A DNA stretch of 64,000 bases from Stenotrophomonas maltophilia (GTDB taxonomy: Bacteria > Pseudomonadota > Gammaproteobacteria > Xanthomonadales > Xanthomonadaceae): positions 3,871,501-3,935,500 of the forward strand of contig NZ_CP106759.1 of the NCBI RefSeq assembly GCF_025642255.1. The letters are read 5' to 3'. This document shows, in pieces, positions 1,398-16,852 of the stretch (position 1 is its first letter; each line of letters begins with the position of its first letter). The notes under the pieces were generated by a model. The model was not told the DNA's origin, did no database searches, and worked only from the letters and a program-made list of their open reading frames with translations. The translations under genes were made by a program, and so were the position numbers.

Positions 1398-2753
1398 TCA
1401 GTACGTGCCGTCGAAGGCAAAGATCGGCTTGCGCTGCTTCCACGCGCCAGCGGTGAAGTCAGGGAACTCCAGCGTCTGGAAGCCATTGGCAATGGACTGC
1501 TCGGACAGCGGGGTGATCGCGCTCCAGGTCACTGCATCGTAGATGTCGATCGGCATCGGCGCCTTGGCCTTCAGTGCCTCGACGAACGCATGGATGACGA
1601 ACCAGTCCATGCCGCCGTGACCGGCGCTGGCCGCGGTGTCGGCATGCTGCTTCCACAACGGGTGCTCGTACTGATCCTGGTAGGTCTTGAACTCTTCCCA
1701 CTGGTGCGGCGGGCTGCGGCCTTCAATGTGGATCGAGTGGTTGACGTCCATCCACAGACCCTTGGTGCCCTGCACGCGGAAGCCCATCGAGTACGGTCGG
1801 GGCAGCGAGGTGTCGTGCTGCAGCAGGATGGTCTCACCGTTCTCGCAGGCAAGCGTGGTGGTCACGATGTCACCCAGCTTGAACTTCACTTGGGTGCTGG
1901 GGTGGGTGGTGCCACCGCTCTTGGCCACGGTGTACTCGTGCAGGCCGCGTGCCTTGGTCGCGAAAGCGTTGATATGGGTGAAGCGGTTGCCGCGGTTGAT
2001 GCCGGTGTACATCGCGCACGGGCCGATGCTGTGGCTGGGGTAGAGCTCGCCGTTGCGCTCCACCGAATGCTCGGTGCGCCAACGTGCCTCGCTCCAGCCC
2101 TTGGGACCGAACTCCACGCCACTGTCGTAAGGCTGGCTGGGATCACCGGAGTTGAACTTCACCCCGCGCAGGTCGTGCTGGTAGCCGGCCTGCAGATGCA
2201 CCAGCTCGCCGAACAGGCCCTGTCGCACCATCTGCAGGGCGGCCATCACATCGCGGCGGTAGCAGACGTTCTCCAGCAGCATGTACGGCGTGCCGGTCGT
2301 GAGCTGGGTCTTCAGCACATCCCAGTGGTCCTGCAGGGTGATGCCGGCCACCACCTCGCAGCCTACGGCCACGCCCGCCTGCATGGCGGCGATCGCCATC
2401 GGCGCGTGGTATTCCCACGGCGTAGCGATGATCACGCCATCGATGCCCTTCTGTTCCAGAAGGCGCTTCCAGGCGTTGCTGTCGCGATCCTGGCCATAGG
2501 CCTTCGGCGCAGGCTTGCCGGCCTTGGTTACCATGTCCACGGCACGACCCAGCATGATCGGCTCGATGTCGCACAGTGCAATGACCTCGACATCGTCGCG
2601 GCGCACCAGCTCCTTCAACAGCACCTGGCCGCGCATGCCGGTACCGATCATGGCCAGGCGGAGCGTGCGCCCGCGCGCCCAGGCCGGGGTCTGTGGCAAC
2701 AGGCTGCTGGCGGCGACGGCGGCACTGGCCGCGATGAACTCCCTGCGTTTCAT
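1398..2753 (-). CDS. Gfo/Idh/MocA-type glycosidase, GH109 alpha-N-acetylgalactosaminidase-like
   Basis: Probably removes terminal alpha-linked GalNAc by the NAD-dependent oxidation-elimination mechanism of GH109. The 451-residue protein begins with a twin-arginine type signal (KRREFIAASAAVAASS). A Rossmann motif GTGMRG follows near residue 39. GH109 signatures follow: GCEVVAG near 133, ENVCYRRDVMA near 162, and YPSHSIGP near 238, where the Tyr and His match catalytic residues described for the Elizabethkingia enzyme. The ATG at 2753 is preferred over the one at 2762 because AGGAGA then lies about 10 bases upstream rather than touching the start. It is the last gene of the leftward operon GH31-receptor-GH109. 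A plain dehydrogenase of the same fold is the alternative, but the signal peptide and neighbours favour GH109. Confidence 0.8.
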   Translation of the reverse strand: MKRREFIAASAAVAASSLLPQTPAWARGRTLRLAMIGTGMRGQVLLKELVRRDDVEVIALCDIEPIMLGRAVDMVTKAGKPAPKAYGQDRDSNAWKRLLEQKGIDGVIIATPWEYHAPMAIAAMQAGVAVGCEVVAGITLQDHWDVLKTQLTTGTPYMLLENVCYRRDVMAALQMVRQGLFGELVHLQAGYQHDLRGVKFNSGDPSQPYDSGVEFGPKGWSEARWRTEHSVERNGELYPSHSIGPCAMYTGINRGNRFTHINAFATKARGLHEYTVAKSGGTTHPSTQVKFKLGDIVTTTLACENGETILLQHDTSLPRPYSMGFRVQGTKGLWMDVNHSIHIEGRSPPHQWEEFKTYQDQYEHPLWKQHADTAASAGHGGMDWFVIHAFVEALKAKAPMPIDIYDAVTWSAITPLSEQSIANGFQTLEFPDFTAGAWKQRKPIFAFDGTY

Positions 2754-2818
2754 GGCAAACATCTCTCCTCTTGGAAGCGCGCCGGCCGCAACCGGCGCGC
2801 TGGATCACTCGAACCTGC

Positions 2819-5794
2819 TTACTTGAATCGATAACCGATGGTCACACTGTAACCACGGCCGAAGATCGTCGCGTAGTCGCTGGAGTCACCCAGGAAGCTG
2901 TTCGGATCGTAGAACGGCAGCCGGTCGAACAGGTTCTTGACGGTGAAGCTCAGGTTCCAGGCGTCATCGGGGCGCCAGGTGACGCTCAGGTTGGCGGTCC
3001 ACCAGGACGGCGCGCCGTCGCACTTGCTGGCCTGCAGCGCCAGGTAGCCGGCGGTGCAGGTCTCCTTGTTGTTATCCACTTCATCCACGCGGTCACGGGC
3101 CCACTTGGTACCGCCCACATAGTTGACGAACATGCTGGTGGTCACCTGCTTGTAGGTCCAGTCGGCGTTGAGCGTGGCGCGCAGGCGCGGGTTGTTGTAG
3201 TAGCCCACCACGTCGCCGTAGTACCAGCCGCTTTCCTCATCCATGTAGTAGCGGTTGCGATTGGCGATGGTGGCGGCCAGGCCCACGTTCAGCCCGCCCC
3301 ACTCGCCCAGCGAGAAGCGGCTGCGTGCGTCCACGTCGAAGCCGTCGACCAGGGTCTTGCCGCGGTTCTTGTACTGGCCGACCACGCTGGCCACGTTGCC
3401 CACGCTGTAGCCGGGCAGGACCGAGGGGCAGCTCACACCGCTGGCCGGGTCGGCGCACATCGCCGCCAGCTGGGCCAGGTTTGCACGATCGGCATCAGTG
3501 ATCGGCGAACGGGTGGAGGAGATGATGTCGGTATCACGGCTGAAATCCGGGGCGACGATCTCGTTGTTGCGGTAGATGAACCAGTAGTCGGCCGACACCG
3601 ACAGCCAGCTGGCCGGCTCGTAGACGAAGCCCAGGGTGGCGATCTTGGCCTTCTCCGGCTTCAGGTCCTGGTTGGGCTGGGTCATGCGGGCCACGGTGCG
3701 GCTGCAATCGACGTTGGCCAGGCTCTTGCCCAGGTCCACGTCACCGGCGCGCTGCGACTGCCGCAACAGGTCGGCGATCGCGTTGGTCTCGGCGCAGCGC
3801 ACCTCATCGCGGTAGCCACCGAGCTGGGCGAACACGCCACCGCTGCCGGACTCGGCCAGGCTCGGCGCACGGAAGCCGGTCGAATAGGTGCCGCGCAGCA
3901 TCAGTTGATCGAATGCCTGGTACTTGAAGCCGATCTTCGGTGCGACGTTGGCGCTGAAGTTCGGGTATTTGTCCACGCGGACCGCGGCATCCAGTTCCAG
4001 CTTGTCGGTGATCGGCGCCACCGTTTCGGCGAACAGTGCATAGGTGTTGCGCGCACCGTCGAACCACGAGCCGCCCTGCTGGGTGATCAGGCCGGCGGCT
4101 GCGTCGGCATTGCCCGGCGTGTAGAAGGTTTCGCGGCTGGCATTGAAGCCGAACGCGGCGCGCATCTCACCGGCCGGCAGCTGGAACAGCGGGCCTTCGA
4201 TCTTGCCGTCCAGGGTGTGCAGGCGCGTCCAGGACTGGATGTCGAAGGTCGGGAACGCCTCGCGGATCAGCGCTGCGTTGGCTTCGCTGATCTCACCGAA
4301 CTTGTATGCCGGATGGTCGGAAATGATCACCCGCCCGGTACCCGGATCCACCGAGTAGGGGCCGAAGGCCTTCTCGAAGCCCTTCAGGTTGACGTTGATG
4401 GTCTGGTAGGTGGTGGAGTGCGTGCCGGCGGTGGCGAAAGCAGTTTCCCAGTTCCAGTCACCCATGTTGCCACGTGCACCGGTCAGCACGCGGTAGCTCT
4501 TGTCGGTGTTGCGCTGGCCGAAGTAGTTGGCGCCGGCATCCTGCAGCAGGTACTGCAGGCCGACTACGCCGCCCATCATCGCCTTCAGTTCAGGGCTGGC
4601 GTGGTTGTACTCGTTGTTCGGCCCCAGGTAGGGATACAGGAACTGGTTGACCGTAGTGCCGGTATCGCGGGAGAACCAGCTGGTCGGATTACCGGTGGTG
4701 GTGCCATAGCTGCGGGGTGTACCGCCATTGGCACGCAGATCGATGTCGGTGTAGGTCGCCTCGGCGAAGATTTCGGTCGAGTCGCCCACCAGGAAGGTGC
4801 CATTGAGGTAGGCGGTGTTGCGCTCGGACTTGGCGCCGGCGTCGATCTCGTTGTTCATCCAGGTCTCCCAGACACAACGCGGACCGGCGGCCTCGCCCTG
4901 CAGCACGTTCTTGCACCCGGGTGCGGCCTCCTGCACGCGGCGGCCGGTGACCGGATCGAAGGCGAAGTAACTGCCCGGGTTGAACTCACCCGGCTTGCTG
5001 CCCACGCCCAGGCGCAGGTTCGTCAGGTAATTGGGATTGTTGACGTAGTACTGCTCGGGACGCTTGTCGTAGAAATCACGCAACGGGATCGCGTCACGGC
5101 GGTACATGTTGACCGCACCGTAGATGTTGAAGCGGTTCTCGGCCAGGTCGCCGAAGCCGGCGGTGATGCTGGCCTGGCGCTCACCGTAGGAGTCGATGCG
5201 CGATGACGTATCGTTGGTGAAGTTGATCTCCGCGCCCTGGAAGTTGCGCTTGGTGATCACGTTGATCACACCGGCCACGGCGTCGGTGCCGTACACCGCC
5301 GAAGCACCATCGGTGAGCACTTCCATGCGTTCGATGGCGGCAGCCGGGATCGCATCGATGTTGACGAACTGGGTCTGGAAGCCGGCGGGTGCGCCGTAGT
5401 ACGACAGGCGACGACCGTTCAGCAGCACCAGCGTGCCCTGTGCGCCCAACCCACGCAGATTGGCCTGCGAGGCACCATCGGAGCCGGTGAACAGCGAGCG
5501 CGAATCCTGCTGCGCCGGGCGGGCAGCCGGCAGGTTGTCGAGCACCTGCAGCAGCGTACGCGCACCCATGTTCTGGATGTCCTGCTTGCTGATGACCTGG
5601 ACCGGCGAAGCGGTTTCCACATCGGTACGGCGGATGTTGGAGCCGGTGACCTCGATGCGGGCCAGGTCGGTGGCGTTGTCCTTGCTGTCCTGCGCAGCGG
5701 CAGGCAGGGCGACCGACAGCAGCGCGCCGGCAATGGCCAGCGTCAGCGGAGCGATCGTGCGACAGGGGGGGCGGCGGTAGCGTGCGGGCAACAT
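2819..5794 (-). CDS. TonB-dependent outer-membrane receptor
   Basis: A 991-residue outer-membrane beta-barrel with an N-terminal plug, expected to import an oligosaccharide or GalNAc-containing ligand using TonB energy. It has a signal peptide ending near PAAAQ, then the TonB-box region LARIEVTGSNIRR. The plug motifs are ASPVQVISKQDIQ, NLRGLG, LVLLNGRR, IERMEVLTDGASAVYGTDAVAGVINVI (shown in part). The C-terminus RGYSVTIGYRFK is a last beta-strand ending in an aromatic plus one Lys. AGGAGA lies 8 bases before the ATG. It sits between two glycosidase genes, with gaps of 119 bp and 65 bp, so it is most likely co-transcribed with them. The substrate is inferred from context only. Confidence 0.9.
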   Translation of the reverse strand: MLPARYRRPPCRTIAPLTLAIAGALLSVALPAAAQDSKDNATDLARIEVTGSNIRRTDVETASPVQVISKQDIQNMGARTLLQVLDNLPAARPAQQDSRSLFTGSDGASQANLRGLGAQGTLVLLNGRRLSYYGAPAGFQTQFVNIDAIPAAAIERMEVLTDGASAVYGTDAVAGVINVITKRNFQGAEINFTNDTSSRIDSYGERQASITAGFGDLAENRFNIYGAVNMYRRDAIPLRDFYDKRPEQYYVNNPNYLTNLRLGVGSKPGEFNPGSYFAFDPVTGRRVQEAAPGCKNVLQGEAAGPRCVWETWMNNEIDAGAKSERNTAYLNGTFLVGDSTEIFAEATYTDIDLRANGGTPRSYGTTTGNPTSWFSRDTGTTVNQFLYPYLGPNNEYNHASPELKAMMGGVVGLQYLLQDAGANYFGQRNTDKSYRVLTGARGNMGDWNWETAFATAGTHSTTYQTINVNLKGFEKAFGPYSVDPGTGRVIISDHPAYKFGEISEANAALIREAFPTFDIQSWTRLHTLDGKIEGPLFQLPAGEMRAAFGFNASRETFYTPGNADAAAGLITQQGGSWFDGARNTYALFAETVAPITDKLELDAAVRVDKYPNFSANVAPKIGFKYQAFDQLMLRGTYSTGFRAPSLAESGSGGVFAQLGGYRDEVRCAETNAIADLLRQSQRAGDVDLGKSLANVDCSRTVARMTQPNQDLKPEKAKIATLGFVYEPASWLSVSADYWFIYRNNEIVAPDFSRDTDIISSTRSPITDADRANLAQLAAMCADPASGVSCPSVLPGYSVGNVASVVGQYKNRGKTLVDGFDVDARSRFSLGEWGGLNVGLAATIANRNRYYMDEESGWYYGDVVGYYNNPRLRATLNADWTYKQVTTSMFVNYVGGTKWARDRVDEVDNNKETCTAGYLALQASKCDGAPSWWTANLSVTWRPDDAWNLSFTVKNLFDRLPFYDPNSFLGDSSDYATIFGRGYSVTIGYRFK

Positions 5795-5913: not shown

Positions 5914-8900
5914 TCATGGGGCGACGATGCTGGCGGAGTCGCCCTCCTGGCCGATCAGCACGGCGTTGGCCCAGTTGGCACAGACCTGGGCGGGTTGACT
6001 GCCCTGCGCACCCAGCGTGCGCAGGCTCAGGGTGGTAAGGCCACGGATGTCCAGCTCCGGCTTGACCACGCCGGGCGCCTTCACCAGGCCGCTGTCGTAG
6101 AGCAGGCGGTTGTCGCCCCAGACCTGGAACTGCAGGCCGCCTGCGCTGCGGCAGGCATCATCAATGCCCAGATCCGCACGCAGCAGGCGCCAGCCGCCCT
6201 GCAGACGCAGGTCGATGCGGCTGTTCGCGCCCACTCCCAGGCCACGGCGGAACTGCAGGCCGTTCATGCGCATGCCGGCCTCGCCACGGAACGCCTGGTC
6301 GGCGCGCACCTGGCTGGCCAGCGCGGCCGGCACCGGCAGCTCGGAGAGATAGCGCTGCCGGGCCGGTCGCTCCGGTTCCTGGTGCTCGAGGATGTGGAAG
6401 GTGGACAGCGCGATCGGGCCGACATCGCGTGGCTGCAACGCGTCGAACGCGCGGGCGCTGCCCTGTGCCGCAGTGACCATCGGGTCGGTGCTGCTGGCGC
6501 CGTCACCTTCGGGGTTCTGCACGCTCAGCACCCGGAAACGCAGCAGGCGACCGGCGTGTGCGGGGAAGTCGATGCGCTGCATTCCTTCCTTCAACTGCAG
6601 CCGGCCCCGGGCGATCGGCTCGCCCCATTCGCCATTGCTGTCGCCCAGGTACACCTCGTAGTCGCGAACCTGGCCATGCTTCCAGTTCTTGTCGTTGCGT
6701 GGCGCCAGCTCGATGCCGTCGATCATCCGGCGCTCACCGAAGCCGACCACCCATTCGTGGGCGCCGGTGCGCACGGCCTGGTTGCGCACGCTGCGGAACC
6801 AGGTGGACGGGTCATCGTCGAACGCGTTCTCCAGCGGATGGCCAGGCTCTTCCGCTGGGCGGTTGACCACCAGCAGGCTGTCGGCCGGCAGCTCGCGGCC
6901 GAGCACCGGCGCGGCCGGATAAGCATCGTCCGCAGCGGCGGCGGTCACGGCGAAGTCCAGCTGCACCTGCAGTGGCTGGCGGATATCCTGCGTGGCGGTA
7001 CGCACATGGACGGTGCCGCCACGCTCACGGGCATCGAAATACCAGCCTTCGTCGGCACCGTTGAAGGCTGCCGCGTCGGCCAGCGCGGGCAGCACACGGG
7101 CGCCGGCCTGCACTGCGCGCGGGGCCTGCCGGCTCAACACGCGCAGGCCGTAGCGACGCTGCGCCAGCTGGCCCTGGTAGGTGCCCTGCACGGCCGCGAT
7201 CTGCACCTGGACCGGGCCACTGCCCTGTGCCGGCGCCTGCACGCGGATCTGCTGCGTGCTCGATTCGCCCTGCTGGTAGCGGCGGGTGTTGCCGTCGTCT
7301 TCGTACAGCGTGTACTGCGAATCGCCCTGCGGATAGAGATCGAAGGTGACCTCGTCCAGCGGCTTCTCGCCATCGAACAGCATCGACGGATACATCGGCA
7401 GGATGGCCCCGGCGCGCACGAACACCGGCAGCGTGGCCAGGTCGACCTGACGGTCGAGCTGGCGGCCCTCGGCGCCGGCCTGCATGCGGCGGCCGTCCCA
7501 GTAGTCGATCCATCCACCGGCCGGCAGATGGATGTCGCGCCGCCAGCCACGGCTGGCCGCCTGGCTGCGGTAGACCGGTGCGATCAGCAGATCACGGCCC
7601 AGCAGGAACTGATACTTGTAGGTTTCGTCCTGCGCGTGCGGATCGCGCGGGTAATCCCACATCAACCCACGCACCGGCGGCGCGCCTGTCTGCGCGGCGT
7701 CGTGCACCAGCCCGTACATGTACGGCGTCAGCCGCATCTTCAGTTTCAGATAGTCGCGGTTGATGCTGCGGTAGGGTTCGTCGTACCACCACGGGTGCTT
7801 GCGCGCGTTCGACGACCAGCCACTCATGCCCATCAGTACCGGAGTGAAGGCCTTCCACTGCAGGTCGCGGGTGTAGGTCTCGGCGCTGCCGCCGAAGATC
7901 GCATCGACATCGCCACTGGCATAGGCCATGCCGGACAATCCCGAGCCGACCAGGGTCGGCACGTGCCAGCGGATGTAATCCCAACTGCTGCTCTGGTCAC
8001 CGGTCCAGGCGACCGCGTAACGCTGGATGCCGGCCCAGCCCATCACCGTCCACAGGAAGGGACGCGAATCGGAATTGTCGACGATGCCATTGAACGCCTG
8101 GCGGTTGGCATCCATCGCGAACTGATAGCCCTTGCCGGTCCAGGCCACATCCAGCTTCTGTACACGGCTGCCGGCCTTGCCGACTTCCCAGGCGATCTTG
8201 TCGACACCGTTCTCCGTCCACAGGCCGGTGCGGAAGCCGTATCCGGCCAGACCCTTCACCGTCTCGGGCAGCTGCTTGTAGCCGCAGCCATAGCCGTCGT
8301 TGGGCAGGATCCAGCCACCGGGCATGTCGTGTGCCCGGTACTGCTTGGCCACGCTGTCGACCACGTCAGGCGTGGTGCCGGTCGGGCCATCGCTCCAGCC
8401 CTCGGGCACGGTGCCCGGCTTCTTCGCGTTGTCGCCGTCGTTGTAGCAATCGGCATCGCCATAGGACAGCGCCCAGCGCGCGACCATGTTGGGACGGCCG
8501 GTCAGCTGCGTGTAGCGCTCGATCAATGCCGGCAGATCGGCACCGACGAAGTAGTAGGCGTCGAAACGATCTTCGCGATGCAGCAGGGTGGACTGATCGG
8601 GCTGGCGCAGGTCGTAGCTGCCGTCGCTCCACGTATTGCGCAGCATGCCCCAGCCGCGGCTGCTCAGCAGCATCGGCGCCGGGCTCGGTCGATCACCCTC
8701 TTCCCAGCCGCCGGAGTAGGACACCTCAAGCTCGCGTCCCTTGAACTGGTAACGGCCATTCTGCTGGCCGCCGCCGAAGAATCCTTCGTCGGGCTGCGAC
8801 GAGAGTACCTGCACGCTCTGTGCAGCATCCAGGTCCAGCGGCTGCAGCTCCTGCCACAACGCAGTGGGCTGGCCATTGTCCAGACGCTCCAACCGCAGGC

Positions 8901-9267
8901 GCAGCGGCTGGCGCTGTACGTGCAGCACGAGTGCGCCGGTGCGCAGACGGATCTCCTGCGCATCTTCTTCCAGCTGTGCCTGCACGTCGGCACTGGGCTG
9001 GGGCAGCACGATCGGCGCGGCCTTGTCGCCGGCTCCGGTCAGTACCCCCTTGCGCCCCGCCTGTACACGGACAATGTCGGCAGCCGGCAGTTCGATGCGC
9101 ACACGCGCGCCGGTGTCGGTCTGCAGGTCCCAGGCGGGCGTGCCCGCCTTGCTGGCGGTGACCGAGCGCAGGTTGCCGATGGGTTCGGCGTGGGCCGACA
9201 TGGACGCCAGCAGCAGCACCGGCAACAGGGCCAGCATCAGCGGCGAGCGACGAATGCAGATTTCCAC
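5914..9267 (-). CDS. GH31 glycoside hydrolase with F5/8-type and NPCBM modules, probable alpha-GalNAc-active
   Basis: A secreted multi-domain glycosidase of 1117 residues. Residues about 150-590 are the GH31 barrel, with nucleophile Asp373 in KLDVAWTG and acid/base Asp424 in WTGDQSSSW. After the beta-sandwich domains comes an F5/8-type (CBM32-like) module around 806-930, recognisable from PLENAFDDDPSTWF and IDGIELAPRNDKNW. An NPCBM-like module lies around 975-1105 (GLGVGANSRIDLRL, FQVWGDNRLLYDSG). Multi-modular GH31 enzymes of this build include the GH31_18 alpha-N-acetylgalactosaminidases, which would fit the locus; alpha-galactosidase or alpha-glucosidase cannot be excluded. I chose GTG 9267, with GGGAG six bases upstream and a good signal peptide ending at AHA. 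A GTG at 9288 in the same frame has no ribosome-binding site. First gene of the leftward operon. Confidence 0.85.
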   Translation of the reverse strand: MEICIRRSPLMLALLPVLLLASMSAHAEPIGNLRSVTASKAGTPAWDLQTDTGARVRIELPAADIVRVQAGRKGVLTGAGDKAAPIVLPQPSADVQAQLEEDAQEIRLRTGALVLHVQRQPLRLRLERLDNGQPTALWQELQPLDLDAAQSVQVLSSQPDEGFFGGGQQNGRYQFKGRELEVSYSGGWEEGDRPSPAPMLLSSRGWGMLRNTWSDGSYDLRQPDQSTLLHREDRFDAYYFVGADLPALIERYTQLTGRPNMVARWALSYGDADCYNDGDNAKKPGTVPEGWSDGPTGTTPDVVDSVAKQYRAHDMPGGWILPNDGYGCGYKQLPETVKGLAGYGFRTGLWTENGVDKIAWEVGKAGSRVQKLDVAWTGKGYQFAMDANRQAFNGIVDNSDSRPFLWTVMGWAGIQRYAVAWTGDQSSSWDYIRWHVPTLVGSGLSGMAYASGDVDAIFGGSAETYTRDLQWKAFTPVLMGMSGWSSNARKHPWWYDEPYRSINRDYLKLKMRLTPYMYGLVHDAAQTGAPPVRGLMWDYPRDPHAQDETYKYQFLLGRDLLIAPVYRSQAASRGWRRDIHLPAGGWIDYWDGRRMQAGAEGRQLDRQVDLATLPVFVRAGAILPMYPSMLFDGEKPLDEVTFDLYPQGDSQYTLYEDDGNTRRYQQGESSTQQIRVQAPAQGSGPVQVQIAAVQGTYQGQLAQRRYGLRVLSRQAPRAVQAGARVLPALADAAAFNGADEGWYFDARERGGTVHVRTATQDIRQPLQVQLDFAVTAAAADDAYPAAPVLGRELPADSLLVVNRPAEEPGHPLENAFDDDPSTWFRSVRNQAVRTGAHEWVVGFGERRMIDGIELAPRNDKNWKHGQVRDYEVYLGDSNGEWGEPIARGRLQLKEGMQRIDFPAHAGRLLRFRVLSVQNPEGDGASSTDPMVTAAQGSARAFDALQPRDVGPIALSTFHILEHQEPERPARQRYLSELPVPAALASQVRADQAFRGEAGMRMNGLQFRRGLGVGANSRIDLRLQGGWRLLRADLGIDDACRSAGGLQFQVWGDNRLLYDSGLVKAPGVVKPELDIRGLTTLSLRTLGAQGSQPAQVCANWANAVLIGQEGDSASIVAP

Positions 9268-9294
9268 GCGGACTCCCAACCCGTTCACCGGGCG

Positions 9295-9388
9295 TTTCGA
9301 AAGCGGTTGGGCCGACTCTAGGGCAGGGATTCGAAAGATGTCAACAAATGGAAAGCAAAAAGTAAGATAAGTTCGACTAAAACGAAAG
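9295..9388 (-). promoter_or_regulatory. Leftward promoter/operator module of the GalNAc locus (candidate AgaR sites)
   Basis: Read on the minus strand, this stretch has CTTTCGTTT (9380-9388), the 20-base core TTATCTTACTTTTTGCTTTC (9351-9370), TTGACA (9339-9344, a consensus -35) and TAGAGT (9315-9320, a 4/6 -10 with an 18-bp spacer). TTTCGAA palindromes overlap or follow the promoter at 9330-9336 and 9295-9302. Five of the eight CTTTC/GAAAG boxes in the intergenic region have this orientation or lie here. AgaR motifs of Proteobacteria are known to be multiple CTTTC boxes. The boxes inside the promoter spacer suggest repression. The promoter should drive the GH31-receptor-GH109 operon. Confidence 0.65.
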
Positions 9389-9464
9389 GTGATGCGGCGC
9401 AGTACTTTGTGTAATCGCTTGCACTCCCCTGTTAAGCTTGGTGCGATACGGCATTTTTCGATTC

Positions 9465-9550
9465 CTTTCGTTTGGGACGATTGCGGTCTGTCAGAAACGC
9501 CAAGCGCTCTTTATCTTTCTTTTTGCTTTCGGTATTTGACATTTCGAAAG
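9465..9550 (+). promoter_or_regulatory. Rightward promoter/operator module of the GalNAc locus (candidate AgaR sites)
   Basis: Mirror image of the leftward module. It has CTTTCGTTT (9465-9473), core TTATCTTTCTTTTTGCTTTC (9511-9530), TTGACA (9536-9541) and the palindrome TTTCGAAA (9542-9549). The core differs from the leftward copy at one position. The -10 is poor: 17 bases after TTGACA stands GATCGT. The module ends 40 bases before the agaS start codon. An AAGCGCT sequence at 9502-9508 could be an additional regulator site but is unproven. This is the expected control region for agaS-kinase-agaZ-agaR-nagA-permease. Confidence 0.6.
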
Positions 9551-9589
9551 AAAACACAGATCGTGCGATGGCCCAACTGGAACCTCCGA

Positions 9590-10756
9590 ATGGACGTCAC
9601 CCTGCTTTCCGATGTGTCCGCCTGGCAGCGCCGGGGCGGAGCCGATACCGCTACTGAAATCGCCCAGCAGCCAGCACTGTGGGACGCGCTTGCACAGGAT
9701 CTGCTGCAGGCCCGCGAACGCCTGCAGGCCTTCCTGGGCGACCGCCTCGACAATCCCGATCAGCGCGTGTTGTTCACTGGCGCCGGTAGTTCCGGCTTCA
9801 TCGCCGAGATGGTGGCCGATGCGATCAACGCGCAGTGGGCCGCTGACGTCCGTGTGGTGCATACCACCAGCCTGCTGACCCATCCGGCGCTGTATCTGCA
9901 ACGCGACCGCCCCACCCTGCTGGTTTCGTTCGGCCGCAGTGGCTCCAGCCCGGAAAGCGTGGCAGCGGTGGACCGTGTGCGCAGCGACGTGGATGACGCA
10001 CGCTTCCTCGACATCACCTGCAACGCTGATGGCGAACTGGCCCGGCGCGGTGCCGGCCGTGCCGATACCTGCACCCTGTTGATGCCGTCGGCCAGCTGCG
10101 ACCGTGCCTTTGCGATGACCAGCAGCCTGACCTGCATGCTGCTGGCCGCGCTGACCGTGTTCGACCGTTCACCGTGGCAGACGCGGGTGGCGCGCCTGAC
10201 GCAGCTCGCTGCGCTGGTCCGCGAAGGCCAGGCGCAGTGGGATGCACCGGTGGCCGCGCTGGCACAGCGCCCCTTCAACCGCGTCATCTACCTGGGCAGC
10301 GGTCCGCTGGAAGCGCTGGCGCGCGAGTGCGCGCTGAAGGTGCTGGAGCTGACCGCCGGCCGCGTGCTGGCGCTGGCCAACACGCCGCTCGGCTTCCGCC
10401 ACGGCCCGAAATCCACGCTGGATGGCAGCACCCTGGTGATCGTGCTGCGCAGCGTGCAGCCGCTTGCACGCCGCTACGAGCAGGATCTGCTGGACGAGCT
10501 GCGCCGCGATGGCGTGGCCGGCCAGGTGCTGGCCATCGGCCCGCATTCGGACATCGGTGCCGACGATGACTACACCCTCGCCGTACCCGTCCTGGAGCCG
10601 GTTCTGGATGATCCCTGGCTGGCGCCGGTGTGGCTGGCCTTCGGCCAGCTGTTCGCACTGCAGCGCTCGGCCGCGCTGGGGCTGACCCCGGACAATCCGT
10701 TCCCCGACGGCACGGTGAACCGCGTGGTCAAGGGTGTCACCATCCACCATGGCTGA
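9590..10756 (+). CDS. agaS: AgaS-type galactosamine-6-phosphate deaminase/isomerase (SIS domain)
   Basis: Expected to convert galactosamine-6-phosphate to tagatose-6-phosphate and ammonia in the cytoplasm. The 388-residue product has two SIS sugar-phosphate-binding domains: FTGAGSSGFIAE (62-73) with SFGRSGSSPESVA (113-125), and a second with YLGSGPLEALARECALKVLEL and a HGPKS motif. Length and motifs fit AgaS rather than GlmS, as no amidotransferase domain is present. I chose ATG 9590 (MDVTLLSDVS). The frame is open back to 9389, but that part runs through the promoter module and has no protein-like sequence. It is the first gene of the rightward operon and overlaps the kinase gene by 8 bp. 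Confidence 0.9.
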   Translation: MDVTLLSDVSAWQRRGGADTATEIAQQPALWDALAQDLLQARERLQAFLGDRLDNPDQRVLFTGAGSSGFIAEMVADAINAQWAADVRVVHTTSLLTHPALYLQRDRPTLLVSFGRSGSSPESVAAVDRVRSDVDDARFLDITCNADGELARRGAGRADTCTLLMPSASCDRAFAMTSSLTCMLLAALTVFDRSPWQTRVARLTQLAALVREGQAQWDAPVAALAQRPFNRVIYLGSGPLEALARECALKVLELTAGRVLALANTPLGFRHGPKSTLDGSTLVIVLRSVQPLARRYEQDLLDELRRDGVAGQVLAIGPHSDIGADDDYTLAVPVLEPVLDDPWLAPVWLAFGQLFALQRSAALGLTPDNPFPDGTVNRVVKGVTIHHG

Positions 10757-11687
10757 GTTGATCGCCCATGCCTGCTACGGCATCGATATCGGCGGCACCA
10801 AGATCGAGCTGGTGGCGTGCGATGCGGCGATGCAGGTCACCTGGCGCCGCCGGGTGGCCACTCCGCAGGGTGACTACGATGGCTTTCTGCGGTCGGTGGT
10901 GGCGCTGGTCGCCGACGCCGACGCCGCACTGGGCCGCAACGATGCGGCCATCGGCATCGCGCTGCCCGGCGTGCGTGACCGCCGCACGGGCCGCCAGCTA
11001 AGTGCCAACGTGCCGGCGCTGACCGGCCACAGTGTGGCGGCCGACCTGCAGGCACGCCTGCAGCGTCCGCTCCATTTCGGCAACGACCTGCAGTGCTTCG
11101 CCTTGTCCGAAGCCCATGGCGGCGCAGCCGACGGCTACCCCAGCATGTTCGGCGCGATCCTCGGCACCGGCGCCGGTGGCGGCTTCTGCCTGCAGGGCCG
11201 CCTGCTGTCCGGCTTCAACGGCCTGGCCGGGGAGTGGGGCCACTGGAGCGTGCCGGGCCACCTGCTGCAGCGTCACGGCCTGCCGTTGATCGACTGCGCG
11301 TGCGGCCTGCAGGGCTGCGTTGAGCGCTATGTATCCGGCAGCGGCCTGGCGATGATCGAACGCCACCTGGGCGGCGCGGCCGTCGATGCCAGTGCGGTGA
11401 TCGCACTGGCCGAAGGCGGCGATGCGCGTGCACGCAGCGCGCTGGACATCCACCGCGACCTGCTCGGCCACAGCCTCGCTGCGCTGGTGCTGGCCCTGGA
11501 CCCGCATGTGATCGTGCTCGGTGGCGGCCTCTCGCAGTACACCCCGCTGTACCAGCAGCTGCCGGCGGCAATCGCTGCCCATCTGTTCAACGGCGTGCAG
11601 GTGCCGCCGATCGTGCCCCCGCGCTTCGGCGATGCCGGTGGCGCCCGCGGTGCCGCGCTGCTTGCCTGCCAACCCTCGTTTTCCTGA
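10749..11687 (+). CDS. ROK-family sugar kinase, probable N-acetylgalactosamine kinase
   Basis: Likely phosphorylates imported GalNAc (or GlcNAc) at C6 with ATP. The 312-residue product shows the ROK layout. The ATP motif GIDIGGTK is at 11-18, catalytic Asp113 is in FGNDLQ, and a second phosphate motif LGTGAGGG is at 138-145. Zinc ligands are His165 and the CACGLQGC cluster (183-190). Start ATG 10749 overlaps the agaS stop as ATGGCTGA, indicating translational coupling; an upstream ATG at 10734 is less likely. ROK kinases vary in specificity, so the GalNAc role rests on the neighbours agaS, agaZ and the deacetylase. NagK (GlcNAc kinase) is the main alternative. Confidence 0.85.
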   Translation: MAELIAHACYGIDIGGTKIELVACDAAMQVTWRRRVATPQGDYDGFLRSVVALVADADAALGRNDAAIGIALPGVRDRRTGRQLSANVPALTGHSVAADLQARLQRPLHFGNDLQCFALSEAHGGAADGYPSMFGAILGTGAGGGFCLQGRLLSGFNGLAGEWGHWSVPGHLLQRHGLPLIDCACGLQGCVERYVSGSGLAMIERHLGGAAVDASAVIALAEGGDARARSALDIHRDLLGHSLAALVLALDPHVIVLGGGLSQYTPLYQQLPAAIAAHLFNGVQVPPIVPPRFGDAGGARGAALLACQPSFS

Positions 11688-11698
11688 TTGTCCGGAGC

Positions 11699-13039
11699 AT
11701 GACCATGTCCCCGTTGCAGACCCTGCTTGCCTCCCACCGCGCCGGCCACAATGTGGGCCTGTACAGCGTCTGCTGCAGCAACGAACAGGTGCTGCGCGCG
11801 GCCATGCACGTGGCACTGGCACACGACACGGTGCTGCTGGTCGAAGCCACCTCCAACCAGGTCGACCAGTTCGGCGGCTACACCGGCATGACGCCGCCGC
11901 AGTACCGCGACTATGTCGGCACGCTTGCGGATGAGGAAGGCTTTCCGCGCACGCGGCTGATCCTGGGCGGCGACCACCTCGGTCCGAACGCCTGGCAGAA
12001 GCGCCCCGCCGCCGAAGCGATGGCCCACGCGCGCGTGCTGATCGAAGCCTACGTGGCCGCCGGCTTCCACAAGATCCATCTGGACTGCAGCATGTCCTGC
12101 GCCGACGATCCGGTGCCGCTGCCTGATGCCACCGTGGCCGCGCGTTCGTCGGAACTGGCGACGATCGCCGAGCGCACGGCTGCCCGGCTCGACCTGCCGG
12201 CGCCGGTGTACGTGATCGGCACCGAAGTGCCCGTTCCCGGCGGCGAAGCCTCGCTGGCCGGTGGCCTGCAGGTGACCACGCCGGCAGCCGCCGCGCAGAC
12301 CCTGGCCATCCACCAGCAGGCATTCGATACCCCCGAACTGCGCGATGCCTGGCAGCGCGTGATCGCGATGGTGGTGCAGCCGGGCGTTGACTTCGATCAC
12401 AGCAGCGTGCACGAGTACGACCCGGTCGCCGCCAACGCGCTGGCCGACTTCCTCGAGCAGCAGCCGCGCATCGTGTTCGAGGCGCACTCCACCGACTACC
12501 AGCGCGAAAGCGGACTGCATGCGCTGGTCCGCGATCATTTCGCGATCCTCAAGGTCGGCCCCGCCGCCACCTTCGCCTATCGTGAGGCGCTGTTCGCGTT
12601 GGCAGCGATCGAACAGGAGCTGCTGCCGGCTGCGCAGTGCTCGCGCCTGCCACAGGTGCTGGAGGAGGTGATGGTGGCGCAGCCGAAGTACTGGCAGCCC
12701 TACTACCAGGGTGACGAGGCGACACTGCGCCTGTTGCGCAGTTATTCCTTCAGTGACCGCTGCCGCTACTACTGGGGCGAACCGGCACTGCTGCGCGCCG
12801 TGCAGACGCTGTTCTCCAACCTGGAGCAGCACACGCCACCGTTGGTGCTGCTGAGCCAGTACCTGCCGGAGCAGTACCGCGCCGTGCGTGACGGCCGCCT
12901 GGCCAACACGCCGACGGCCCTGGTGCAGCACCGCATCGGCCAGTGCCTGGGCGAGTATGCCCGCGCCTGCAGCGCCAACCAGGCAGGCAAGCGCGGTCAG
13001 GACACACGATCCGCTGCCGGCATTGCTGCGAACGGCTAA
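11699..13039 (+). CDS. agaZ: AgaZ/GatZ/KbaZ family protein of tagatose-6-phosphate metabolism
   Basis: A 446-residue protein with the strongly conserved GatZ/KbaZ blocks: EATSNQVDQFGGYTGM, LGGDHLGPNAWQ, and KIHLDCSMSCADDP. In enteric bacteria this family is described as the non-catalytic partner of class II tagatose-1,6-bisphosphate aldolase (AgaY/GatY/KbaY); a kinase role on tagatose-6-phosphate has also been proposed. No AgaY-like aldolase is encoded nearby. Two in-frame ATGs, 11699 and 11705, are possible, and CCGGAGC lies just upstream; the second has the more usual spacing. It follows the kinase by 11 bp and precedes agaR by 34 bp, so it is part of the same operon. Confidence 0.9.
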   Translation: MTMSPLQTLLASHRAGHNVGLYSVCCSNEQVLRAAMHVALAHDTVLLVEATSNQVDQFGGYTGMTPPQYRDYVGTLADEEGFPRTRLILGGDHLGPNAWQKRPAAEAMAHARVLIEAYVAAGFHKIHLDCSMSCADDPVPLPDATVAARSSELATIAERTAARLDLPAPVYVIGTEVPVPGGEASLAGGLQVTTPAAAAQTLAIHQQAFDTPELRDAWQRVIAMVVQPGVDFDHSSVHEYDPVAANALADFLEQQPRIVFEAHSTDYQRESGLHALVRDHFAILKVGPAATFAYREALFALAAIEQELLPAAQCSRLPQVLEEVMVAQPKYWQPYYQGDEATLRLLRSYSFSDRCRYYWGEPALLRAVQTLFSNLEQHTPPLVLLSQYLPEQYRAVRDGRLANTPTALVQHRIGQCLGEYARACSANQAGKRGQDTRSAAGIAANG

Positions 13040-13073: not shown

Positions 13074-13850
13074 ATGCGCAACACCCGCTCCCGCCGGCAA
13101 CAGATCCTGCAGCTGCTGATCGAGCACGGCTCGGTGCAGGTGGCCGATCTGGTCGAGCGCTTCGGCGTGTCCGCGGTGACGATCCGCGCCGACCTGACCC
13201 ACTTCGAGTCGCAGGGCCTGGCCAACCGCACCCACGGTGGCGCCAATCTGGTGCGCACGCCTCCGCAGGAGCAGGACATCCATGAAAAGGATGCGCTGAA
13301 TCTGCCCCTGAAGGAGTCCATCGGCGCCTGCGCGGCGAACCTGGTGCAGGCCGGTGACAACATCATCATCGACTCCGGTTCGACCACCATGACGCTGGCC
13401 CGCCATCTGCGTGGCCGCCGCGATGTGACGGTGATGACCAATGGCCTGAACATCGCGTGGGAACTGGCCAATGCTGCCGGCATCAATGTGCTGCTGACGG
13501 GCGGGCTGCTGCGTCAGCAGTCGTTGTCGCTGCAGGGCAGCCAGGCCGAGGCCAGCCTCAATTCCTACAGCTTCGACACCCTGTTCCTGGGCGTGGACGG
13601 GTTGGACCTGCAGTTCGGCCTGACCACCCACGATGAGGCGGAAGCGCGCCTCAACCACCGCATGGTCGAGCGCGCGCGGCGCATCGTCGTGCTGACCGAC
13701 GCCTCCAAGTTCGGCCGTGTCAGCCTGCATCGCATCGCCCGCCTGGATCAGATCCATACCGTCATCACCGACGCCGGCATCGACGACGCAACCCGCGAGG
13801 GCCTGCAGCGGCTGGGCATCGAAGTGATCATCGCCGAGCCGCCCGCATGA
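13074..13850 (+). CDS. agaR: DeoR-family transcriptional regulator, AgaR-like
   Basis: A 258-residue cytosolic repressor. The N-terminal winged helix covers residues 1-58 (RRQQILQLLIEHGSVQVADL then FGVSAVTIRADL). The C-terminal effector domain resembles sugar-phosphate isomerases, with DSGSTTMTLARHL and LLTGGLLRQQSLSLQG. I chose ATG 13074 because homology begins at MRNTRSRRQQ; the open frame before it overlaps agaZ in another frame. Its stop overlaps the next start as ATGA. It most likely represses the divergent GalNAc promoters at 9295-9550 and is induced by an amino-sugar or tagatose phosphate. Binding has not been shown here. Confidence 0.88.
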   Translation: MRNTRSRRQQILQLLIEHGSVQVADLVERFGVSAVTIRADLTHFESQGLANRTHGGANLVRTPPQEQDIHEKDALNLPLKESIGACAANLVQAGDNIIIDSGSTTMTLARHLRGRRDVTVMTNGLNIAWELANAAGINVLLTGGLLRQQSLSLQGSQAEASLNSYSFDTLFLGVDGLDLQFGLTTHDEAEARLNHRMVERARRIVVLTDASKFGRVSLHRIARLDQIHTVITDAGIDDATREGLQRLGIEVIIAEPPA

Positions 13851-14962
13851 CCGACACCCGTTCCCTGCATGGCCGCATCCTCACCCCGCTGGGGTGGCGA
13901 CGTGGGCATGTCCACTTCGACTCGCATGTGCGCCAGCTGCAGGTGGACGACCACAGCGGCGGTGATGACCCGCAGCTGCAGGTGATCCTTCCCGGTTTCA
14001 TCGATCTGCATGTGCACGGCGCTGCCGGTGTAGACCTGATGCAGGGCGGCGACGTCGCCCGCACCATCGCCCGCACCCACCTGCGCTTTGGTACCACCAC
14101 GCTGCTGGCGACCACCCTGACCGCCGGCCTGGACGAGATCGAGTACGCCCTGCAGGGCGTGGCCGCCACCATGGCAGCACCGGACGACGAGGCCGCATGC
14201 ATCGCCGGCGTGCATCTGGAAGGGCCGTTCATCAGCCCTCAGCGCCTGGGCGCACAGCCCAACCGTACGATCGAGGCGACGCTGGCGCTGGTGCAGCAGC
14301 TGCATGCGCTGGCACCGATCCGGGTGATGACGCTGGCGCCGGAGATCGGCGAACACACGGCGCTGATTCCTGCGCTTTCGGCGATGGGCATCCGTGTGCA
14401 GCTCGGCCACAGCGCGGGTACTTACGAAGAAGGTGTGGCTGCTCTGCAGGCGGGTGCATCCGGCTTCACCCATCTGTTCAACGGCATGACCGGCGTCGAT
14501 CACTATCGCCCGGGCATCGCGGCGGCGGCGCTCGCCCATGCACGTTACGCCGAGATCATTCCCGACCTGCAGCACATCCATCCCGGCGTGATCCGCCTGG
14601 CCGCGCGCGCGATTCCGCGCCTGTACGCGGTGACCGACGCTACGGCCGCCACCGGCATGCCGGATGGCGAGTACGCGCTGGGCGAACAGCGCGTGCACAA
14701 GTGTGGCGGTTGCGTGCGGCTGGCGACCGGTTCGCTGGCCGGCAGCGCGCTGACCATGGACCAGGCACTGCGCAACCTGGTGCGTGTGGGGCTGGATCTG
14801 GCCGACGCCTCGCAGCGCGTTTCCACGTTCCCGGCCGACTACCTGGGCCTGGGCGATCGCGGTCGCATCGCGCCCGACGCCCGCGCCGATCTGGTGGTGC
14901 TGGACGCTGGACTGCGCCTGCAGCAGGTGGTGGTGGGTGGCCGGGTGGTCGAGCTGCACTGA
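13847..14962 (+). CDS. nagA: NagA/AgaA-type N-acetylhexosamine-6-phosphate deacetylase
   Basis: A metal-dependent amidohydrolase of 371 residues that would remove acetate from GalNAc-6-phosphate and supply AgaS. All expected ligand and catalytic residues are visible: His55 and His57 in DLHVHG, Glu125 in HLEGPF, His188 in LGHSAG, His209 in THLFNGM and Asp274-type acid in TDATAATGMP (Asp264). The ATGA overlap with agaR indicates coupling. NagA enzymes also act on GlcNAc-6-phosphate, so GalNAc specificity is inferred from neighbours. I name it nagA at family level; agaA would be appropriate if GalNAc specificity were shown. Confidence 0.9.
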   Translation: MTDTRSLHGRILTPLGWRRGHVHFDSHVRQLQVDDHSGGDDPQLQVILPGFIDLHVHGAAGVDLMQGGDVARTIARTHLRFGTTTLLATTLTAGLDEIEYALQGVAATMAAPDDEAACIAGVHLEGPFISPQRLGAQPNRTIEATLALVQQLHALAPIRVMTLAPEIGEHTALIPALSAMGIRVQLGHSAGTYEEGVAALQAGASGFTHLFNGMTGVDHYRPGIAAAALAHARYAEIIPDLQHIHPGVIRLAARAIPRLYAVTDATAATGMPDGEYALGEQRVHKCGGCVRLATGSLAGSALTMDQALRNLVRVGLDLADASQRVSTFPADYLGLGDRGRIAPDARADLVVLDAGLRLQQVVVGGRVVELH

Positions 14963-15064: not shown

Positions 15065-16852
15065 ATGACTGCAAGCACCGCTCCGCGCTGGCCCGTACGC
15101 TATCTGCTCTTCATCGGCGGCCTCGGCGGCCTGCTGTACGGCATCGATATCGGCATCATTGCCGGTGCCCTGCCCTATCTGGAAGCGACCGCCAGCCAGG
15201 CCTGGCAGCTCAGCAGCCAGCAGCTGGGATTCGTCGTTGCAGCCGTTCTGCTGGGCAGTGTGCTGTCCTCTTTGTTTGCCGGCATGGTGGCCGATCTGAT
15301 CGGACGCCGCGGCGCGATGCTGCTGGCTGGCGTTCTGTTCACCGCCTCCATTCCCATCATGGCGCTCGCTTCGGGCTACACGCCGCTGCTGCTGGGCCGA
15401 CTGCTGCAGGGCATCAGCGGCGGCCTGATCGGAGTGGTGGTACCCCTGTACCTGGCCGAGGTGCTCAGTCCGGAGCGGCGTGGCCGGGGTGCAGCGATGT
15501 TCCAGCTGCTGCTGACCATCGGACTGGTGCTGGCGGCGCTGATCGGCCTGTACCACGCCCAGGCCGTGGATGCCGCTGCCGAAACCGTGCGCTCGCTGCC
15601 GCTGGCACAGCAGGCGCAGGAACTGTTCGCCGTGAAGGACCATGCGTGGCGGACCATCTTCTGGAGCTGCCTGACGCCGGGCCTGGTGTTCTGTGCCGGC
15701 ATTTTCTGGCTGTCGGAGTCGCCGCGCTGGCTGGTCCGCCGTGGTCGGGTGGACGACGCCCGTCGCAGCCTGCTGCGGGTGCTGCCGGCCGCCGAGGTCG
15801 AGCCCACGCTCGCGCGCATCCAGGCACCGGAATCCAGTGGCACGAACGGCAGGCGTGATCCGCTGCTCAGCCGCCGCTACGTGGTGCCCTTCGTGCTGGC
15901 CTGCGTGGTCCTGGCCTGCACCCAGGCCACCGGCATCAACTCGGTGCTCGCCTATGCGGTGAACATCCTCAACCAGGCGGGCCTGTCCGGTTCGGTGGCC
16001 AATGGCGCCGACGTGGCGATCAAGCTGCTCAATGCGGTGATGACCGTGGTCGCGCTGCTGCTGGTGGATCGCAAGGGCCGCAAGTTCCTGCTGATGCTCG
16101 GCAGCGGCGGTATCTGCGTGGCGCTGCTGGCCGCCGCCACCCTGTTTTTCCAGGCCGAACGCAGCCGCGCCGATGTGCAGCCGCAGCTGCAGGCCGCAGC
16201 CAGCGGCGATGGCCTGCATCTGGTACTGGACGAGGCACAGTGGCAACGCCTCACTGACGGCATCGACAGCGAAGGCCGTCCGATGCAGCTGACCGTGTCC
16301 TACGCCTATGGCGACTTCACCAACGTGCGCGCACTTCGCAGTGACAACCTGATCGATCGCGAGCTGCGCATCGACCGTGCCGGCACCGTGCAGCCGGACA
16401 GCGTCATCGGCGCCTTCTTCCGCACCCTGCACCTGAATCCGTTCGCAGACCCGGCCGGCGCCGCGCACGCACCACTGCGCATCGAGCAGGCGCGGATCGG
16501 ACCGGTGCCAACGCCGGCCCACGGCTGGGCGGTGGCCGCCTGCATCCTCGTGTTCGTTGCCTTCTTCGCGGTGGGCCCTGGCGTCTGCGTATGGCTGGCA
16601 CTGTCCGAGCTGATGCCCAACCGGATCCGCTCCAATGGCATGAGCATCGCGCTGCTGATCAATCAGTTCGTGTCCACCACCATCGCCGCGATCTTCCTGC
16701 CGACCGTGGGCCACTATGGCTACGCCAGCATGTTCCTGTTCTGGGCGGCATGCACATTCGTGTTCTTCCTGGTGGCTGCGTTCTGGCTGCCGGAAACCAA
16801 GGGCAGGTCGCTGGAGGAAATCGAGGCCAGATTCGCGACCAGGCAGCGCTGA
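15065..16852 (+). CDS. MFS sugar-porter permease with a large periplasmic insertion
   Basis: An inner-membrane proton/sugar symporter of 595 residues, probably the cytoplasmic-membrane step for GalNAc uptake. Sugar-porter motifs are present: GLLYGIDIGIIAG (TM1), ADLIGRRG (77-84), SPRWLV (219-224), TQATGINSVLAY (286-297), DRKGRK (335-340), PETKGRSLEE (576-585). Typical family members have about 460-500 residues. The surplus is a soluble insertion at about 364-486, between TM9 and TM10, which is periplasmic by standard MFS topology, and a smaller one between TM5 and TM6 (about 165-195). AGGAA precedes the ATG. Its stop lies 7 bp from the convergent lipoprotein gene. The substrate is inferred from the operon. 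Confidence 0.88.
   Translation: MTASTAPRWPVRYLLFIGGLGGLLYGIDIGIIAGALPYLEATASQAWQLSSQQLGFVVAAVLLGSVLSSLFAGMVADLIGRRGAMLLAGVLFTASIPIMALASGYTPLLLGRLLQGISGGLIGVVVPLYLAEVLSPERRGRGAAMFQLLLTIGLVLAALIGLYHAQAVDAAAETVRSLPLAQQAQELFAVKDHAWRTIFWSCLTPGLVFCAGIFWLSESPRWLVRRGRVDDARRSLLRVLPAAEVEPTLARIQAPESSGTNGRRDPLLSRRYVVPFVLACVVLACTQATGINSVLAYAVNILNQAGLSGSVANGADVAIKLLNAVMTVVALLLVDRKGRKFLLMLGSGGICVALLAAATLFFQAERSRADVQPQLQAAASGDGLHLVLDEAQWQRLTDGIDSEGRPMQLTVSYAYGDFTNVRALRSDNLIDRELRIDRAGTVQPDSVIGAFFRTLHLNPFADPAGAAHAPLRIEQARIGPVPTPAHGWAVAACILVFVAFFAVGPGVCVWLALSELMPNRIRSNGMSIALLINQFVSTTIAAIFLPTVGHYGYASMFLFWAACTFVFFLVAAFWLPETKGRSLEEIEARFATRQR

Follow-up and report, generated by a model that had tools for sequence, protein, structure and literature searches.

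A divergent promoter pair with predicted AgaR operators between the GH31 glycosidase and agaS operons of Stenotrophomonas maltophilia

Two operons diverge from a short intergenic region in the 64,000-nucleotide stretch of the Stenotrophomonas maltophilia chromosome that was analyzed here, referred to below as the window (Table 1). The left operon encodes a GH31 glycosidase, a TonB-dependent receptor, and a GH109-type glycosidase, and just past the end of its last gene lies a tRNA-Arg (CCG) gene at 1134-1210. The right operon starts with agaS and carries agaR as its fourth gene. Judged by the families of these genes, the locus is one for the uptake and catabolism of N-acetylgalactosamine. Its product AgaR contained HTH_DeoR and DeoRC domains, was 100% identical to the AgaR of strain IAM 12423 (S. 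maltophilia group) and 51% identical to that of Escherichia coli, and shared with the latter the recognition-helix segment VSxVTIRxDL. No other regulator gene was seen in the aga locus. The agaZ/kbaZ product belongs to the “noncatalytic” type of tagatose-bisphosphate aldolase subunit, and the class II aldolase family PF01116 had no member in the complete genome, so that the partner subunit is missing; this absence would agree with another role of AgaZ, for instance as a kinase. The gaps between genes inside either operon were short and held no cluster of the boxes described below, and each operon would therefore be driven from the shared region. Since agaR lies in the right operon, it would control itself.

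TABLE 1 Features of the two operons and of the region between them (positions in the window)
Feature	Position	Strand	Basis or remarks
GH109-type glycosidase, left operon	1398..2762	-	PF21252, 268 bits
TonB-dependent receptor, left operon	2819..5794	-	Domain match
GH31 glycosidase with NPCBM domain, left operon gene 1, GTG start	5914..9267	-	Domain match; start codon aligned in relatives
Divergent control region, GH31 gene (-)/agaS (+)	9265..9589	.	Arrangement kept in 55 related loci; 31-representative alignment
Near-private box, GH31 5' leader	9299..9303	-	Exact in 3/31; probably nonfunctional
-10 hexamer TAGAGT, GH31 promoter, within very conserved CTGCCCTAGAGTCGG	9315..9320	-	Scan; mean column conservation 0.89 at 9306-9325
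Half-site CTTTC(GAA), just downstream of GH31-side -35	9333..9337	-	Exact in 18/31
-35 hexamer TTGACA, GH31 promoter	9339..9344	-	Consensus scan TTGACA-N18-TAGAGT, 10/12; conserved
Half-site CTTTC, upstream of GH31-side -35, direct repeat 18 bp from 9333	9351..9355	-	Exact in 14/31
20-nt core, left copy	9351..9370	-	19/20 with 9511-9530; 16-18/20 in sister strains
Upstream half-site CTTTCG, GH31 side	9384..9388	-	Exact in 29/31
Accessory middle half-site CTTTCG	9465..9469	+	Exact in 13/31, clade-specific
20-nt core, right copy	9511..9530	+	19/20 with left copy; within 39/42 Duganella match
Upstream half-site CTTTC, direct repeat 11 bp before 9526	9515..9519	+	Exact in 17/31, CTTT invariant
Main predicted agaS-side operator CTTTCGGTATTTGACATTTCGAAAG	9526..9550	+	Convergent half-sites 20 bp apart around -35; box 9526 exact in 25/31, 9546 in 30/31
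-35 hexamer TTGACA, agaS promoter	9536..9541	+	TTGAC kept in essentially all 31 representatives
Probable -10 GATCGT, 17-nt spacer, agaS promoter	9559..9564	+	Weak consensus; kept as GATnGT in alignment
agaS, first gene of right operon	9590..10756	+	TIGR02815, 400 bits, under curated cutoff of 529
ROK-family amino-sugar kinase	10755..11687	+	PF00480; top NCBIfam match is N-acetylglucosamine kinase, below cutoff
agaZ/kbaZ-type gene	11699..13039	+	TIGR02810, 606 bits, above cutoff
agaR, DeoR-family repressor, gene 4 of agaS operon	13074..13850	+	NCBIfam AgaR NF040755, 327 bits versus cutoff of 260
nagA/agaA-type deacetylase	13847..14962	+	TIGR00221, 222 bits, slightly under cutoff
MFS sugar porter	15065..16852	+	TIGR00879 and PF00083

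The divergent region is marked by a dense cluster of the pentamer CTTTC and its complement. All eight pentamers claimed in an earlier note on this DNA were located within 322 bp, with CTTTC starting at 9465, 9515, and 9526 and GAAAG at 9299, 9333, 9351, 9384, and 9546, against a window average of 0.28 boxes per 322 bp. In 5,000 composition-matched dinucleotide shuffles of the region, the mean was 1.47 boxes, and eight or more were found in only 1; the excess thus stood, while the expectation of fewer than one box by chance proved slightly optimistic. No other region of the 64-kb window had a cluster of at least four boxes per 250 bp, and no second cluster was found in the window or in related loci. 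The same note had described two near-identical 20-base cores in opposite orientation, each accompanied by TTGACAT and a palindrome. These cores matched at 19 of 20 positions, and outward of each were found TTGACAT and then the palindrome TTCGAA. Of 500 shuffles, 1 contained an inverted 20-nt pair at 19/20 or better; given the many T-tracts of the region, such a pair is rare but not extremely so.

The cores lead into two outward-facing promoters, and boxes flank both -35 hexamers, so that the predicted sites overlap the promoters of the N-acetylgalactosamine genes. The agaS-side -10 scored under the threshold of the consensus scan. The agaS-side operator CTTTCGGTATTTGACATTTCGAAAG occurred once in the genome at up to three mismatches and was the sole perfect pair of half-sites.

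A search with AgaR yielded 70 loci, 55 of which keep the divergent GH31/agaS region at a length of 308 to 400 bp, and 31 representatives from Stenotrophomonas, Lysobacter, Luteimonas, Pseudoxanthomonas, and further Lysobacterales were aligned. Mean column conservation was 0.87 in the right module, 0.77 in the left module, and 0.89 at the left -10 but 0.50 in the middle; in the 31 Xanthomonadales regions, conservation extended to the two -35 hexamers and to four or five of the boxes but not to the middle. Two conserved islands stood out: on the right, CTTTnnnTTnnCTTTCGATATTTGACATTTCGAAAGAAAA followed by GATnGT in the -10 position, and on the left, read on the minus strand, CTTnCTTTTTnCTTTCAATTTnTTGACATCTTTCGAA followed by CTGCCCTAGAGTCGG with TAGAGT as the -10. 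The expectation that the boxes would be conserved in related species held for about five of them, which were widespread, and not for the other three, two being clade-specific and one (9299) nearly private. A role for all eight boxes was accordingly rejected in the case of 9299 (3/31) and is doubted in that of 9465 (13/31).

Several further observations were made in the relatives. Some clades (L021, L022, L024, L026, and related loci) carried extra divergent GAAAG-N15/16-CTTTC pairs, 20 to 21 bp apart, between the modules. The conservation of CCGACTCTAGGGCAG around the GH31-side -10 (0.89 at 9306-9325) exceeds what a -10 hexamer alone would need, and the CTAGAGT core of this segment was also present in Duganella. 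In addition, a Stenotrophomonas-like aga locus, with an AgaR 87% identical to the one studied here, was found in a record titled Bacillus subtilis (JAHREJ010000011.1), which is probably contaminated or mislabeled.

The parallel between the modules had been read in the earlier note as the copying of one ancestral module. That one promoter block was recently duplicated in inverted orientation, a claim about origin that is compatible with AgaR control, is unlikely. In this genome the cores match at 19/20, and in most species the two modules score higher in alignment than shuffled sequence does (mean z, 3.5), but the core match falls to 16 to 18 of 20 in sister strains and to 8 to 16 in other lineages, so that the near-identity of the 20-base cores is species-specific. 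Left and right modules of the same species were scarcely more alike than those of different species (means of 15.6 versus 14.4; standard deviation, 3.5), and for a given left module, an average of 10 among the 31 right modules gave a better fit than the species' own. The geometry of the half-sites also differs, being a direct repeat of 18 bp on the left and a convergent pair of 20 bp on the right. The copying claim was therefore not borne out in this form. Common requirements for an operator and a -35 hexamer, or a very old duplication, account equally well for the parallel; the common requirements are the preferred account, and an ancient duplication may also have occurred.

It is very unlikely that the pyrimidine-rich stretches before both -35 hexamers are mainly UP elements, with the CTTTC boxes as by-products of T-tracts. 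In both promoters, the T-rich cores do occupy positions around -40 to -60, as UP elements usually do; however, the best-kept boxes are outside the T-tracts, one between -35 and -10 (9546; 30/31) and one far upstream (9384; 29/31), and variation is seen at the middle T's but not in CTTT and TTTCGAAAG.

The distribution of the operator across genomes followed that of the locus. Among 151 Lysobacterales genomes, a close AgaR (at least 326 bits), agaS, and GH31 co-occurred in the same 12, and there was no genome with GH31 but without AgaR, all 12 GH31 carriers having both. The operator TTTCGATATTTGACWTTTCGAAAG, at up to three mismatches, was found once per genome in 12 of the 12 genomes with a close AgaR, always at the agaS promoter, and in 0 of the 139 others. 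This co-occurrence ties the operator to the whole locus rather than to AgaR alone, as the locus is fully linked in the sample. In the S. maltophilia genome itself, both module patterns were unique, and no other AgaR target with either full module was found at up to three mismatches.

Outside this set, the boxes were found beside other genes. In two Duganella species, AgaR was 69% and AgaS 59% identical, and the divergent gene was one for a TonB receptor in place of GH31; in one of them (L057), the agaS promoter was identical to the right module at 39 of 42 positions. In Luteimonas cucumeris, a TonB receptor gene likewise replaces GH31, and the left module persists. As the modules of Duganella and L. 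cucumeris lie beside a TonB receptor gene, the boxes follow agaR-agaS and not GH31. The Duganella regions span 5180-5545 in L057 and 5250-5605 in L058, and the 39/42 promoter identity (L057) may be set against protein identities of 59 to 69%: either the promoter is under strong constraint, or operon and switch were transferred together. The full operator was absent from six Lysobacterales genomes with a distant AgaR just above the family cutoff (42 to 47% identical where compared), and the operator rule is thus limited to close AgaR orthologs. In some Lysobacterales with a distant AgaR, four or five boxes were present upstream of an agaS-like gene. For more distant AgaR-like loci, the flanking DNA was too short for a fair comparison of boxes. 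A viral scan with the agaS-side core gave no matches.

These results argue strongly for a divergent promoter pair repressed by AgaR, which would control both operons and its own gene. The two outward-facing modules are very probably promoter/operator units to which AgaR is predicted to bind, and the earlier assignment of both as AgaR-type operators agrees with their conservation in relatives and with the presence of matching boxes at those E. coli promoters to which AgaR binds, binding here being predicted from sequence. It is very unlikely that another regulator, such as a global one, binds the boxes. Co-occurrence does not tell AgaR apart from other factors linked with the locus, but the operator occurs nowhere else in the genome and the clusters are unique within the loci, which would not be expected of a global regulator; the boxes also match E. 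coli AgaR promoters, and the locus showed no regulator gene besides agaR.

Binding, repression, and the inducer, like the exact transcription starts (expected near 9571 on the plus strand and 9308 on the minus strand), are what we infer from this arrangement. AgaR would recognize half-sites of the form TTTCG (CTTTC/GAAAG). On the agaS side, it would occupy the direct pair 9515/9526 and the convergent partner 9546, flanking the -35 hexamer and extending into the spacer. Its sites on the GH31 side would be 9351 and 9333, which lie on either side of the -35 hexamer, and the upstream box 9384, which is strongly conserved. Once bound, AgaR would keep RNA polymerase off both -35 regions and limit its own synthesis, and an amino-sugar phosphate derived from N-acetylgalactosamine or galactosamine would free it. 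Its release would then turn on together the left operon, for outer-membrane uptake and glycan cleavage, and the right operon, for catabolism.

The distances between boxes favored whole helical turns (10 to 11, 20 to 21, and 31 to 33 bp), with a period peak at 10.5 to 11; the post hoc test of spacing gave a modest result (P = 0.07 for the Stenotrophomonas genome, 0.07 for E. coli, and 0.019 combined). A tentative and rather doubtful extension of the repression model is that AgaR acts as a higher oligomer on mixed half-sites (direct at 11 bp, convergent at 20 bp, and divergent at 21 bp) and joins the two promoters within a single repression complex of about 170 bp. To our knowledge, a loop-type switch has not been described for AgaR.

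The analysis provides a precise candidate operator for the use of amino sugars by Stenotrophomonas and related bacteria, and it places an operon for uptake and glycan cleavage under the same proposed repressor as the catabolic operon. That the promoter is nearly identical in Duganella points to inheritance or transfer of operon and switch as a unit.

Repressors of the DeoR family, such as DeoR and GlpR, use several operator sites, and oligomerization is known in the family; the AgaR studied here likewise has the HTH_DeoR and DeoRC domains and multiple candidate operator sites. A 2012 study by Leyn et al. is said to have described AgaR regulons of Proteobacteria, with a kinase-deacetylase-deaminase type of pathway and outer-membrane components, as at the Stenotrophomonas locus. 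The two aga control regions of E. coli were found to contain 7 boxes each, 14 in all, or 5.85 per 250 bp compared with 0.70 over the remainder of a 50-kb stretch, and local alignments of the modules with these regions scored marginally above shuffles (P = 0.007 to 0.03; 0.31 in one comparison). As reported in PMC3668189, AgaR of E. coli has binding sites at the agaR, kbaZ, and agaS promoters (Ray and Larson 2004), and deletion of agaR raises agaS expression 175-fold and makes the regulon constitutive. Besides the related AgaR, the two systems share dense CTTTC/GAAAG clusters, CTTTC direct pairs 10 to 11 bp apart, a repressor gene within its own regulon, and a divergent arrangement (agaR-kbaZ in E. 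coli). The E. coli boxes, however, are mostly CTTTCGTTT-like and are spread over about 250 to 350 bp at separate promoters, and the regulon includes PTS genes, whereas in Stenotrophomonas a single region serves two operons, one of which encodes glycosidases and a TonB receptor, and the -35 hexamer sits between two convergent half-sites. The assignment of the feature as AgaR operators at a divergent promoter pair is thus well supported and makes it a new example, in a compact arrangement, of a known kind of gene switch.
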